A stretch of 64,000 bases of DNA. Source: Oscillospiraceae bacterium (GTDB lineage: Bacteria; Bacillota; Clostridia; Oscillospirales; Ruminococcaceae). The stretch covers positions 1 through 64,000 of the forward strand of contig JALELV010000098.1 in the NCBI GenBank assembly GCA_022768545.1, given 5' to 3'. A program made the position numbers and the translations under genes. Of the stretch, positions 2,725 through 6,226 are shown in pieces. The notes under the pieces were generated by a model. That model did no database searches. It saw nothing but the letters and a program-made list of their open reading frames with translations, and was not told the origin of the DNA. Each line of letters begins with the position of its first letter. Position 1 is the first letter of the stretch.

Positions 2725-2830
2725 GGGTCTTCTGCCTCCTTTTTTGTTGTGTTTCCCGGTAATACCGCCCCTGTTTTCCGTGCGCCGGGGCGCCGCGTGC
2801 CATTTGATATAAATTTGTCAAATCTTTTTT

Positions 2831-2859
2831 ATTATACCTTTCCCCCAAATGATAGTCAA
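2831..2859 (-). promoter_or_regulatory. Promoter of the leftward hydrogenase operon
   Basis: On the minus strand TTGACT (2854-2859), a 17-bp spacer and TATAAT (2831-2836). This is a near-consensus housekeeping promoter about 105 bp upstream of the small Fe-S gene. Confidence 0.8.
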
Positions 2860-2944
2860 GCCGCGCCCCCTTTTTTCCGCGGCAAAATCCGTTATACTGT
2901 ATCTGCGGGTGTTTTCCTTTGTTTTAAAAAAATTTTCTTTTCCC

Positions 2945-2973
2945 TTGTATCCCGCGGCGAAAAAAGGTAAAAT
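2945..2973 (+). promoter_or_regulatory. Promoter of the rightward hydrogenase/phosphatase operon
   Basis: TTGTAT (2945-2950), a 17-bp spacer and TAAAAT (2968-2973), upstream of the gene at 3027. Together with the minus-strand promoter at 2831-2859 it makes a divergent control region of about 300 bp that holds no other gene. Confidence 0.6.
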
Positions 2974-3026
2974 GTAATTGATATTTTTTTAACAGAAATG
3001 CTGCTTCTGCAGCCGGAGGTGCTTTT

Positions 3027-3293
3027 ATGGTTGAAGTCAGTGTCTGTGTGGGGAGCTCCTGCCACATGAAAGGGTCCTATCAGGTCATTAAAACTTTTAC
3101 GGAGCTGATCAAGGCAAACGGCCTGGAGGATACTGTCCATCTCAAGGCTTCCTTCTGTATGGGCCGCTGCCTCAGCGGAATCGCCGTCACGGTAAATGAC
3201 CAGCCCGTGGAAAACGTTGGTTTTGTCAACGCCGAGCAGGTGTTTTATGAAAAAATCTTTCCTCTGGCCCAGGGCGAAACCGCCGGGGCATAA
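3027..3293 (+). CDS. [2Fe-2S] thioredoxin-like ferredoxin (NuoE/HymA-like)
   Basis: An 88-residue protein with the canonical four cysteines C7-x4-C12 and C44-x3-C48 of the thioredoxin-like [2Fe-2S] domain found in NuoE and hydrogenase subunit HymA. It is the first gene of the operon with the sensory-type hydrogenase (3332) and the SpoIIE-type phosphatase (5054), so it likely carries electrons to or from that hydrogenase-like protein. A GGAGG site precedes the ATG. Only the isolated domain is present, without the N-terminal helices of NuoE. Confidence 0.78.
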   Translation: MVEVSVCVGSSCHMKGSYQVIKTFTELIKANGLEDTVHLKASFCMGRCLSGIAVTVNDQPVENVGFVNAEQVFYEKIFPLAQGETAGA

Positions 3294-3331
3294 GCCGTCA
3301 AACAGAATCCTGTCAAAAAGGAGTCACCGCC

Positions 3332-5038
3332 ATGAGTGTAATTGAACTGAATACCACCAACTGTCAAAACTGCTACCGCTGCATCCGGGAGTGCCCTCTC
3401 AAGGCAATTGCCTTCCGGGACGGGCGCGCCCGCATCATCGAAAAGCAGTGCATCCTCTGCGGCATCTGTGTGCAGACCTGCCCGCAGAACGCAAAATACA
3501 TCCGCAGCGACGTGCCCTATGTCAAGGAGCTGCTGGCCGGTCCCAAGCCGGTTTACGTCTCCATCGCCCCCTCCTGGAAGGGCTGGTACAGCACCTCCGA
3601 TTTTAAAAAGATCAGCGCCGCTTTCAAAAAGCTGGGCTTTGCCGGTGTGGAGGAGACCGCCATCGGCGCGGCAGAGACCAGCCGGGAGTACGCCGATCTC
3701 ATGCGTACGGGCTCCATGAAAAACATCATCGCCACCGCCTGCTCCTCCGTAGTCATGCTGGTAGAGCGGTACTATCCAGAGCTCATTAAATGTCTGGCAC
3801 CCGTGTCCTCCCCCATGATGGCCCACGCCCGCCTGATGCGGGAAACTTACGGCGACATCAAGGTCGTCTTCGTAGGGCCCTGCCTTTCTAAAAAAGACGA
3901 GGCGGCGGACCCCCTTGCCGGAGGCCTTGTAAACTACGCCCTCACCTTCTCCTCCCTGGACAAATGGATGAGCGAAGCGGGCATTTCCCTGGACGAGATC
4001 CCCGAAGACGGACAGGCAGTAGGGCTTTCAGAGCCGGTGACCCGCCTTTATCCCAAGCCCTCCGGCATCCTGAACACCATCCCGGAGGAAAGCTTTACCG
4101 GGTACAAGCCCATGGCGGTGGACGGCATCTTCCGCTGTATCGAGCTGTTTGACGCCATGCGGGACGGGGAGATCTCCGGCGTATTCGTGGAGGCAAATGT
4201 CTGTGCGGGCGGCTGCATGGGCGGCCCGGTGCTGCGCATGGGACATCACCGGCCCATTGTGGAGATCGAAAAAATAGACGGGAAGCCCATGTCCCAGGAT
4301 GCCGCTCCCGCCGCCACCTGCAACCTGCAGTTCCCTCATCCCAGGGTCTTTACCAACCGCAGCATCCCCAACCCCCAGCCCAGCGAAGAAGAGATCAAAA
4401 AGATCCTTGCCCGTATCGGCAAATACACCCCAGAGCAGGAGCTCAACTGCGGCAGCTGCGGCTACCGCAGCTGCCGAGAAAAGGCCGTGGCGGTGTATCA
4501 GGGCAAGGCCGATATGAATATGTGCCTGCCCTTCTTCCGGGAGAGGGCGGAGAACATCTCAAACACCGTGACCGAGCACTCCCCCAATGCCATCATTGCG
4601 CTGGACCCCTCTCTGAACGTCATCGACTTAAACCCCGCCGCAGAGGCCATGTTCGAGGTGACCCGCAAGGATGCCCTGGGCGTGCCGCTTGCCCAGTTCT
4701 ACGGGGAAAGCGCCTTCCAGGAGGCCAAAGATCAGAACACGCCCATCATCAAAAAAATGGTACTCTCCGAAAAATTTCCCTCGGTGGAATCCACCTTCAT
4801 CTACATAGGAGAACACGGGATGTATCTGGCCTTTGTCAAGGATATTTCCGGTGAGGAACAGCGCAAGGAGCAGCTGGAAAGCATGCGGGATCACACCATC
4901 GAGGTAGCCCAGAAGGTCATCGAAAAGCAGATGGTGGTGGCGCAGGAGATCGCCAGTCTGCTGGGTGAGACCACGGCGGAGACCAAGGTGGCCCTCACCA
5001 ATCTCAAAAAGTCCATGTCCGATCTTTCACAGGGTTAA
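3332..5038 (+). CDS. Sensory-type [FeFe] hydrogenase with PAS domain (HydS-like)
   Basis: 568 residues. Two 4Fe-4S ferredoxin sites (C11-C14-C17-C21 and C40-C43-C46-C50) are followed by the H-cluster domain (about 70-330). An FeS domain with spacing C-x2-C-x4-C-x16-C lies near 385-410, then a PAS domain (about 440-520) and a helical C-terminus. The first H-cluster motif reads TACSS (135-139) rather than TSCCP, so the catalytic proton-transfer cysteine is replaced. The second and third motifs, GPCLSKK and NVCAGGC, keep the cluster ligands. This pattern is typical of group C/D putative sensory hydrogenases. The inferred role is H2 or redox sensing passed to the phosphatase encoded 15 bp downstream. 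Catalytic turnover is expected to be low. AAAGGAG precedes the ATG. Confidence 0.85.
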   Translation: [568 protein letters not shown]

Positions 5039-5053
5039 AGGGAGGGGTACTGC

Positions 5054-6226
5054 ATGGAACTGTTTGTAGACGCCGCCTATGAGAGCCTCAACCATTACGG
5101 AGAAGAGCTCTGCGGCGACAAAGTGGAGTTTGTACGCCAGGACGATTCCTTTCTGGCGGTGCTGGCGGACGGTCTTGGCAGCGGCGTAAAGGCCAATATC
5201 CTCTCCACCCTCACCAGCAAAATCATCGCCACTATGCTCAGCGAGGGCGCCACCCTCACTGAAGCGGTGGAGACCATCGCCAGCACCCTGCCGGTGTGCA
5301 GTGAGCGGGGGCTGGCCTACTCCACCTTTACCATCGTGCGGGTATCCCGCCAGGGGAAGGTGTATCTGGCGGAATTTGACAACCCCTCCGCCATTCTTTA
5401 CGTAGATAACCTTTTGGAGCCGATTCAGCGCACCGAACGGGAGATCGGCGGCAAAACGATCTATACCAGCGAGTTCTCCGTCAAGGCCGGAGATCTGCTC
5501 ATGTGCTTTTCCGACGGCGTCGTCCACGCCGGTGTGGGCCGCCTGCTGGACCTGGGCTGGCAGTACGACAACATCGTCAATTATGTCAGCGAGAATGTCA
5601 CCCCGCAGATGTCCGCCCGGGAGATCACCCGCCGGCTGCTTTCGGCGGTGAACACCCTGTACATGCAGAAGCCCGGAGACGATTCCACCGTCTGCTCCTT
5701 CCGCTTTAAGGCAAACCGCCCGGCCTCCATCATGGTGGGGCCGCCGGTCAACCCGGCTCTGGATGTCACCGCGGTCAACAAGCTTATGTACTCCAAAGGG
5801 CTCAAGGTAGTCTGCGGCGGCACCACCTCCCAGATCGTCAGCAAAGTCACCGGAAAGGAACTCACAGTACATTTGGACTACGACAACCCGGCAATCCCTC
5901 CCACCGCCACCCTGGCGGGGATCGACCTGGTCACCGAAGGGGTGCTCACCTTGGGCAAATGTCTGGAGATCGTCAAGACCATGACCGCCAGCGACGAAAA
6001 ACAGCTGGACCACTTCTCTTTAAACAAAAAGGACGGCGCCACCCGCCTTGCCAAGCTTCTTTTGGAGGAGTGCACCGAAGTCCACTTCCTGGTGGGACGC
6101 GCTCTGAACCCCGCTCATCAGAACCCCGGCATGCCTGTCTCCCTGGGGCTGAAGCTCAACCTGATCAAAGAGCTCTCCGCAGAGCTTGAAAAAACGGGGA
6201 AAAAAGTTACAGTGGAGTATTTTTAA
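5054..6226 (+). CDS. SpoIIE/RsbU-type PP2C-like serine phosphatase
   Basis: 390 residues. The first 230 or so match the SpoIIE/PP2C fold, with metal-binding Asp in ADGLGSG (D39) and in FSDGV (about residue 155). The remaining 160 residues form an extra C-terminal region that I do not recognise. Such phosphatases act on phosphoserine in STAS-type anti-sigma antagonists, but no partner kinase or antagonist lies next to it. SpoIIAA/AB are at 25 kb and have their own usual phosphatase. It is the last gene of the sensory hydrogenase operon, 15 bp behind it, with a strong GGGAGGGG ribosome site. The natural inference is that it is the output module for the hydrogenase-like sensor. Confidence 0.85.
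   Translation: MELFVDAAYESLNHYGEELCGDKVEFVRQDDSFLAVLADGLGSGVKANILSTLTSKIIATMLSEGATLTEAVETIASTLPVCSERGLAYSTFTIVRVSRQGKVYLAEFDNPSAILYVDNLLEPIQRTEREIGGKTIYTSEFSVKAGDLLMCFSDGVVHAGVGRLLDLGWQYDNIVNYVSENVTPQMSAREITRRLLSAVNTLYMQKPGDDSTVCSFRFKANRPASIMVGPPVNPALDVTAVNKLMYSKGLKVVCGGTTSQIVSKVTGKELTVHLDYDNPAIPPTATLAGIDLVTEGVLTLGKCLEIVKTMTASDEKQLDHFSLNKKDGATRLAKLLLEECTEVHFLVGRALNPAHQNPGMPVSLGLKLNLIKELSAELEKTGKKVTVEYF

Follow-up and report, generated by a model that had tools for sequence, protein, structure and literature searches.

The closest described relatives of the locus reported here are the hfsABCD operons of Thermoanaerobacterium saccharolyticum and T. thermosaccharolyticum, which likewise encode the PAS-bearing sensory hydrogenase HfsB, the serine phosphatase HfsC and the group B hydrogenase HfsD, and which share with it a small upstream gene and a redox and fermentation context (PMC5707799; PMC11837493; PMC8924675). 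In Thermoanaerobacterium, deleting hfsA/hfsB diverts flux towards ethanol and increases adhE, an effect that requires hfsC and hfsD; genetically, the output is the partition of fermentation products and the expression of adhE, and is not confined to the adjacent hydrogenase (PMC5707799). PMC11837493 places HydS and HydA2 of Ruminococcus albus like HfsB and HfsD, where the putative H2-sensing HydS is thought to regulate the ferredoxin-linked hydrogenase. The sensory enzymes TmHydS (group C/M2f) and TamHydS (group D/M2e) contain two N-terminal [4Fe-4S] clusters, an H-domain lacking the proton-relay Cys and a Cx2Cx4Cx16C motif, as in the HydS described below, and TmHydS alone of the two has a PAS domain; the available portions of these reports treat the enzymes singly and mention neither a phosphatase partner nor an output helix (PMC8163306; PMC10055695; PMC13104023). 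Group B hydrogenases are reported to drive most human gut H2 production, and better characterisation of sensory hydrogenases has been called for (PMC12578642).

Layout and promoters of the divergent locus

We analysed a window of 64,000 nucleotides from an Oscillospiraceae bacterium, whose genome is 89% complete. Two divergent operons face away from each other, trxB-grpB (964-2724, minus strand) and trxS-hydS-phosphatase (3027-6226, plus strand), so that all five genes of the divergent hydrogenase cluster claimed in the initial annotation are present. The span assigned there, 2725-6226, takes in the plus-strand operon and the gap between the operons, but leaves the group B half outside. Chance or an assembly artefact was ruled out; the same arrangement is found in independent assemblies.

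The catalytic partner, grpB (964-2457, minus strand), encodes a group B [FeFe]-hydrogenase of 497 aa that scores 611 bits against TIGR04105 (cut-off 450) and 222 bits against PF02906. Direct reading found TSCCP intact and the GPCAAKK and ACPGGC motifs present, which agrees with its earlier description as a catalytic-looking enzyme with TSCC. GrpB belongs to another group B subfamily than the HfsD-type enzymes (≈40% identity between them), and no HfsD-type gene was found in the incomplete genome of the window. The genes trxB (2458-2724, minus strand) and trxS (3027-3293, plus strand, in the hfsA position) had been presented as a pair of 88-residue thioredoxin-fold Fe-S proteins. Length and fold hold for both, and the ligands hold for TrxS, which reaches 31.4 bits against PF01257 (cut-off 24.8) and carries the C-x4-C...C-x3-C set of a [2Fe-2S] protein, conserved in its relatives. 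TrxB stays below the same cut-off (16.1 bits), and its AlphaFold model (pLDDT 87) shows a derived, thioredoxin-like NuoE fold (Foldseek probability 1.00 to NuoE/HydC). Only Cys9, Cys11 and Cys14 are invariant among 15 TrxB homologues, giving a non-canonical C-x-C-x2-C set; the second ligand pair is lost, and the Fe-S label is therefore unproven for TrxB. The gene stands before grpB also where grpB is not linked to hydS.

A sigma-70-type promoter, TTGACT-17-TATAAT (2831-2859, minus strand; 11/12 consensus matches), is predicted for trxB-grpB. Directly downstream of it lies a Rex-like operator, TTGACAAATTTATATCAA on the minus strand (2804-2821; score 14.1, p=0.005 against dinucleotide shuffles), and a second one, TTGATATTTTTTTAACAG, lies upstream of trxS-hydS (2978-2995; score 12.2, p=0.010 in the window). 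The consensus is stated in PMC8457756, and the genome contains a rex gene. The canonical TTGTTAANNNNTTAACAA is found upstream of the sensor operon in relatives, including perfect copies in L021 and L025, and no site was detected at this position in L007, L009, L013, L014, L016, L017 and L019. Overall, Rex-like operators occur in 15/29 sensor-operon promoters compared to 7/203 control promoters (Fisher p=6e-11). Such predicted Rex-type sites in front of the sensor genes appear to be a new observation.

The sensory hydrogenase and its phosphatase

Domain and ligand readings identify hydS (3332-5038, plus strand) as an HfsB-type group C sensory [FeFe]-hydrogenase. Matches to PF02906 (155 bits), to the C-terminal FeS domain PF04060 and to PAS_4 (29 bits, over the cut-off) give the order of two [4Fe-4S] clusters, H-domain, C-terminal Cx2Cx4Cx16C [4Fe-4S] cluster, PAS domain and output helix. 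These clusters, the PAS domain after the C-terminal cluster and a proton-relay Cys that is not conserved correspond to the group C (M2f) architecture defined in PMC8163306 and PMC13104023. The ligands of the N-terminal clusters (Cys11/14/17/21 and 40/43/46/50) and of the H-domain (Cys137/184/291/295) are invariant in 33 homologues, and those of the C-terminal cluster (Cys373-x2-Cys376-x4-Cys381-x16-Cys398) are likewise invariant. The TACSS that had been noted in place of TSCC was slightly misread: Ala136 replaces the proton-relay Cys (CpI Cys299), a position that is Ala in 17, Cys in 13 and Ser in 3 homologues, whereas the H-cluster ligand Cys137 (CpI Cys300) is retained in all 33.

The best conserved segment of HydS is a predicted output helix of 37 residues (520-556; 4889-4999, plus strand), with a mean column identity of 0.86, compared to 0.59 in the H-domain and 0.47 in the PAS domain (33 homologues). 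It occurs once in this genome, a second copy having been sought and none found; the genome's other sensory-type hydrogenase lacks it and is partnered by an ATPase, not a phosphatase. This putative helix is a new observation of the present analysis.

The gene directly downstream encodes an HfsC-type SpoIIE/PP2C serine phosphatase (5054-6226, plus strand; PF07228, 67 bits). Loss of its metal ligands would have spoken against a phosphatase output; in an alignment of 46 homologues, Asp22, Asp39-Gly40, Asp154-Gly155 and Asp209 are all invariant. Its C-terminal region had been flagged as unfamiliar, and residues 219-390 (5708-6223, plus strand) indeed have no Pfam match beyond chance in any of the 46 homologues, no PDB fold at E<0.001 and no significant hit among PDB sequences. 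AlphaFold models the region as a Rossmann-like domain (pLDDT 89, pTM 0.86), which, as modelled, is another new observation of this analysis. A phosphate-binding domain like that of methylglyoxal synthase (MGS) is a weak lead: an MGS-like GTT phosphate loop was matched at E 5e-4 to 2e-3, spanning only 21-26 columns, Foldseek gave a probability of 0.9 to the MGS fold but E 0.04 and TM 0.5, and a ten-member MGS profile scored 25.6 compared to ≤18.2 in 12 shuffled or reversed controls. A scan of viral contigs for MGS relatives yielded nothing useful.

The coupling of sensor and phosphatase is nearly obligate. In a survey of 157 genomes of the order, 52 have at least one of the two genes, and 48 of these have both; of 53 HydS loci, 49 carry the phosphatase gene immediately after hydS on the same strand, as do nearly all of 80 loci in public genomes. 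We favour, as on balance the probable reading, a rearranged hfs/HydS system that adjusts fermentative electron disposal under a Rex gate. HydS, as a slow sensory hydrogenase, would react with H2, which we infer to be the signal, or sense the redox state of the pool of electrons, and TrxS would be the likely partner that carries electrons for it. The state of the H-cluster and Fe-S domains would pass through the PAS domain to the nearly invariant C-terminal helix, which would dock on the phosphatase and switch it. Relay through the redox state of the C-terminal cluster is doubtful, because the corresponding cluster of the group D enzyme TamHydS gave no response to H2 (PMC13104023). The phosphatase would then dephosphorylate a Ser/Thr phosphoprotein, presumably encoded outside the cluster, and the response, whose direction is likewise presumptive, would adjust electron disposal and, plausibly, the amount or activity of the divergent group B enzyme as well. 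The NADH-responsive repressor Rex would additionally gate the sensor operon, and probably both operons.

Possible targets of the phosphatase and competing explanations

The initial annotation proposed that the sensed signal regulates the group B enzyme beside it, and held that failure of the two halves to co-occur in relatives would refute this. They do co-occur, and a sensor-phosphatase that exists to regulate the divergent hydrogenase is a possible reading, which we nevertheless consider doubtful. In the clade of the window, the group B gene, of its different subfamily, is divergent from the module in 8 of 15 members with readable flanks (window included), compatible with a pairing ancestral to this 100/100-supported clade and later losses; L027 shows an independent divergent pairing, and other genomes of the order have 37 phosphatase genes that are followed by an HfsD-type group B gene on the same strand. 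However, the remaining readable members, about half of the clade, have the group B gene elsewhere, on another contig, and 18 genomes have this subfamily but no sensor. Across the order, the phosphatase is not associated with it (5/49 compared to 18/108, p=0.34), in contrast to its strong tie to HfsD-type enzymes (39/49 compared to 21/108, p=8e-13). In other lineages the module adjoins HydABC, or no hydrogenase gene lies within 10 kb of it. Moreover, a phosphatase requires a phosphoprotein intermediate, and the cluster encodes none. The case for control of the neighbour is thus circumstantial. Massiliimalia timonensis and M. massiliensis, both of which have been cultured, belong to the clade.

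The search for a STAS substrate, also suggested earlier, found SpoIIAA alone in the 89%-complete genome and no dedicated protein. The genome has only two SpoIIE-family phosphatases and this one STAS protein, which would suit a split switch, in which the protein dephosphorylated by HfsC would be phosphorylated by an RsbW-like HATPase encoded beside the group D-type sensor of the hydABC cluster. A HATPase_c_2 protein (46.5 bits, over the cut-off) does adjoin the group D-type HydS on contig C64, and 14 Lachnospiraceae-type loci have the order PHP-DRTGG-HydS2-HATPase-DRTGG / HydCBA followed by HydS-HfsC. The genome-level association is weak, however (31/49 compared to 49/108, p=0.04, relatedness uncorrected), and HydS2 is absent from 18 phosphatase-bearing genomes. 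We consider such a switch unlikely, and give the same low weight to its fuller form, in which two sensory hydrogenases would drive opposing arms of one serine-phosphorylation switch (group D with the RsbW-like kinase, group C with HfsC) on a non-STAS target, the H2 level setting fermentative electron disposal.

HydS might instead be a slow H2-cycling redox enzyme and no sensor, with Rex alone linking expression of the two operons. Its cluster ligands are all kept, TmHydS activity is measurable (PMC10055695) and Rex-like operators are present; the near-obligate phosphatase, the PAS domain, the highly conserved helix and the regulatory genetics of hfsB (PMC5707799) make this improbable. Least probable of all is action on SpoIIAA that ties H2 or redox state to sigma-F, which the SpoIIE-like catalytic domain and the spoIIAA (25461-25835, minus strand) and spoIIAB (25010-25456, minus strand) genes in the same window, with no other STAS protein found, might suggest, but SpoIIE, the usual SpoIIAA phosphatase, is itself present (861-aa frame, C58) and the hfs genetic phenotype is metabolic (PMC5707799).

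Relation to known hfs and HydS systems

What makes this locus of a gut-type anaerobe worth attention is the way its genes are arranged, the likely sites for the NADH-responsive repressor Rex and a target that is absent from the cluster. A complete module of sensor and phosphatase is transcribed away from an adjoining group B hydrogenase, and the clade has members in culture. The locus offers a mutable putative output helix, predicted Rex operators and a conserved domain at the phosphatase C-terminus, and the genome has a single obvious candidate for an opposing kinase.

In the plus-strand operon we recognise the hfsABC/HydS module of Thermoanaerobacterium and R. albus, with the SpoIIE-type phosphatase directly downstream of HydS/HfsB (3332-6226). 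That sensory hydrogenases can be linked to phosphatases was described from the outset as known, and the present pairing is best read as hfs/HydS (PMC5707799; PMC11837493); none of the papers searched joins 'group C3' with a phosphatase. The genome of the window carries one group C and one group D-type sensory hydrogenase. Unlike in hfsABCD, the group B gene is not the last of the same operon, but is divergent, of another subfamily and accompanied by a thioredoxin-like protein of its own, in which the Cys set is altered. The hydS/hydA2 arrangement of R. albus is described as hfs-like in PMC11837493, whereas the arrangement here is divergent. We conclude that the whole locus is probably a rearranged hfs/HydS system, of a kind known already but differing in arrangement.

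Locus layout and the HydS-phosphatase pair

Two operons point away from each other across a gap of 302 bases (2725-3026). On the minus strand (964-2724), trxB (88 aa) is followed without a gap by grpB, which encodes a group B [FeFe]-hydrogenase (TIGR04105, 611 bits; cut-off 450); the plus strand (3027-6226) carries, closely spaced and in this order, trxS (88 aa), hydS (568 aa), and the gene of a 390-aa SpoIIE-type phosphatase. The span initially annotated, 2725-6226, took in the plus-strand operon and the gap but not the trxB-grpB half. A WCGPC thioredoxin gene (96-895) lies upstream of the cluster, after minus-strand tRNA-Pro and tRNA-Gln; a small Cro/CI-type HTH regulator gene (6278-6610, minus strand), convergent and directly 3' of the phosphatase gene, has no known membership in the module.

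HydS contains two N-terminal [4Fe-4S] motifs, an H-domain, a Cx2Cx4Cx16C cluster domain, and PAS, the domain set published for group C/M2f (PMC8163306, PMC13104023). Across 33 homologues, the 12 Cys of the N-terminal motifs and the H-cluster never vary, nor do the four C-terminal ones. The reading of TACSS in place of TSCC held for the proton-relay Cys (Ala136; Cys or Ser in some homologues), a position whose variation is already known in this group (PMC10055695), but the cluster ligand, Cys137, is retained and invariant. The most conserved part of HydS is a 37-residue segment near its C-terminus, the output helix (mean column identity 0.86; PAS, 0.47; H-domain, 0.59). It occurs once in the window's genome and is missing from the second sensory-type hydrogenase there (contig C64), whose partner is an ATPase. 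We infer that this helix is the HydS contact to the phosphatase.

The phosphatase keeps its metal ligands (Asp22, Asp39-Gly40, Asp154-Gly155, and Asp209/210 invariant in 46 homologues), so the ligand loss that the initial annotation gave as a refutation is not seen. Conservation of its C-terminal 170 residues roughly equals that of the catalytic domain, and they are present in every complete gene copy. AlphaFold confidently predicted an alpha/beta Rossmann-like domain (pLDDT 89, pTM 0.86) without a significant match in the PDB. Methylglyoxal synthases were among the likelier fold matches (none significant), and a GTT loop resembles their phosphate loop, but together these are too weak to name the domain. 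The genome's own methylglyoxal synthase gene (locus L108, 1420-1821, minus strand) encodes a similar GTTS loop.

Conservation and group B partners

Among 157 genomes of the order, HydS was present in 51, the phosphatase in 49, and both in 48, and the phosphatase gene is the next gene on the same strand for 49 of 53 HydS genes; coupling of the HydS sensor to the phosphatase is likely. In 37 cases the genes follow the known hfsBCD order, with an HfsD-type group B gene further downstream on that strand. A group B gene of the window type (at least 588 bits against the window protein) occurs in 23 genomes, just 5 with HydS. Across the survey it showed no association with the phosphatase (p=0.34), and the HfsD-type gene did (p=8e-13; neither value corrected for relatedness). 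HfsD-type genes can also pass the TIGR04105 cut-off, so both types are group B. The four hydrogenases of the window's genome are HydA of HydABC, a group D-type enzyme, HydS, and GrpB, which leaves no HfsD-type copy there.

Divergent trxB-grpB pairing was found in the window and in public loci L005, L006, L007, L009, L010, L011, and L015; the group B gene lies away from hydS in L013, L014, L016, L017, L019, L020, and L082, and the flanks of L008 and L012 were too short to be informative. These relatives and the window form a single clade in the HydS tree (support 100/100), on which the divergent arrangement costs three changes. In another lineage (L027, 7089-9989), an HfsD-type hydrogenase, accompanied by a canonical thioredoxin-like [2Fe-2S] protein, forms an independent divergent pairing with HydS-phosphatase. 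The module adjoins HydABC instead in loci of Ruminiclostridium-like and Lachnospiraceae type. Because HydS-phosphatase is kept while the neighbouring hydrogenase varies, we conclude that the module is the stable unit and that its catalytic partner is swapped.

The annotated pair of 88-residue thioredoxin-fold Fe-S proteins stood as to length and fold, and TrxS is a canonical thioredoxin-like [2Fe-2S] protein, but TrxB retains only Cys9, Cys11, and Cys14. Since trxB precedes window-type grpB even far from hydS (L095-L097, L099-L102), we assign it to that group B enzyme.

Output candidates and promoters

The genome encodes two SpoIIE-family phosphatases, SpoIIE and the HydS-linked enzyme. A search for the suggested STAS substrate returned one STAS protein, SpoIIAA. 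Its gene lies in what looks like a standard sigma-F operon (24338-25835, minus strand; spoIIAA-spoIIAB, then a sigma factor gene). Besides SpoIIAB, the genome encodes a HATPase_c_2 protein, adjoining the group D-type hydrogenase (FeS domain present, PAS absent) in the hydABC cluster and its divergent operon (L085, G000:C64, 4991-13860; PHP, DRTGG, group D-type hydrogenase, anti-sigma-type HATPase, DRTGG), an arrangement conserved in Lachnospiraceae loci. In 14 Lachnospiraceae-type loci, the hydABC/HATPase cluster is followed by HydS and phosphatase, and order-wide co-occurrence is weakly enriched (p=0.04, uncorrected for relatedness). Together these make a split switch, with the HATPase as candidate kinase opposing the HydS-linked phosphatase, a testable idea rather than a result. 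TamHydS is flanked by a histidine-kinase-like ATPase (PMC8163306).

The trxB-grpB promoter is near-perfect (minus strand, TTGACT-17-TATAAT). Rex-like operators lie beside it (2804-2821, p=0.005) and beside the trxS-hydS promoter (2978-2995, p=0.010), as scored with an untrained matrix hand-written around the clostridial consensus; the genome has a Rex gene. Among relatives, 15 of 29 sensor-operon promoters have a strong site, as against 7 of the 203 remaining promoters at those loci (p=6e-11); sites on the trxB side are less consistent. The sensor-operon promoters of L021 and L025 carry a perfect TTGTTAANNNNTTAACAA, the clostridial Rex consensus (PMC8457756).

Comparison with known systems

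In the literature searched, which leaves most subscription journals outside and is weak proof, we found no description of the divergent order, of the different group B subfamily, of the trxB alteration, of the output helix, or of the operon's Rex sites. The association of sensory [FeFe] hydrogenases with phosphatases was, as initially annotated, already known from hfsABCD of T. saccharolyticum, where deletion of hfsA or hfsB raises ethanol yield and adhE expression, effects that require hfsC and hfsD (PMC5707799). In R. albus, HydA2 is thought to be under HydS regulation (PMC11837493). These precedents imply that this kind of system is known. That the sensor-phosphatase governs the group B enzyme next to it is plausible but unproven. 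In hfsABCD, the HfsD-type gene lies downstream on the same strand, whereas the window's group B gene is divergent and of a different subfamily; the locus is a genuine and conserved hfs/HydS module in rearranged form.
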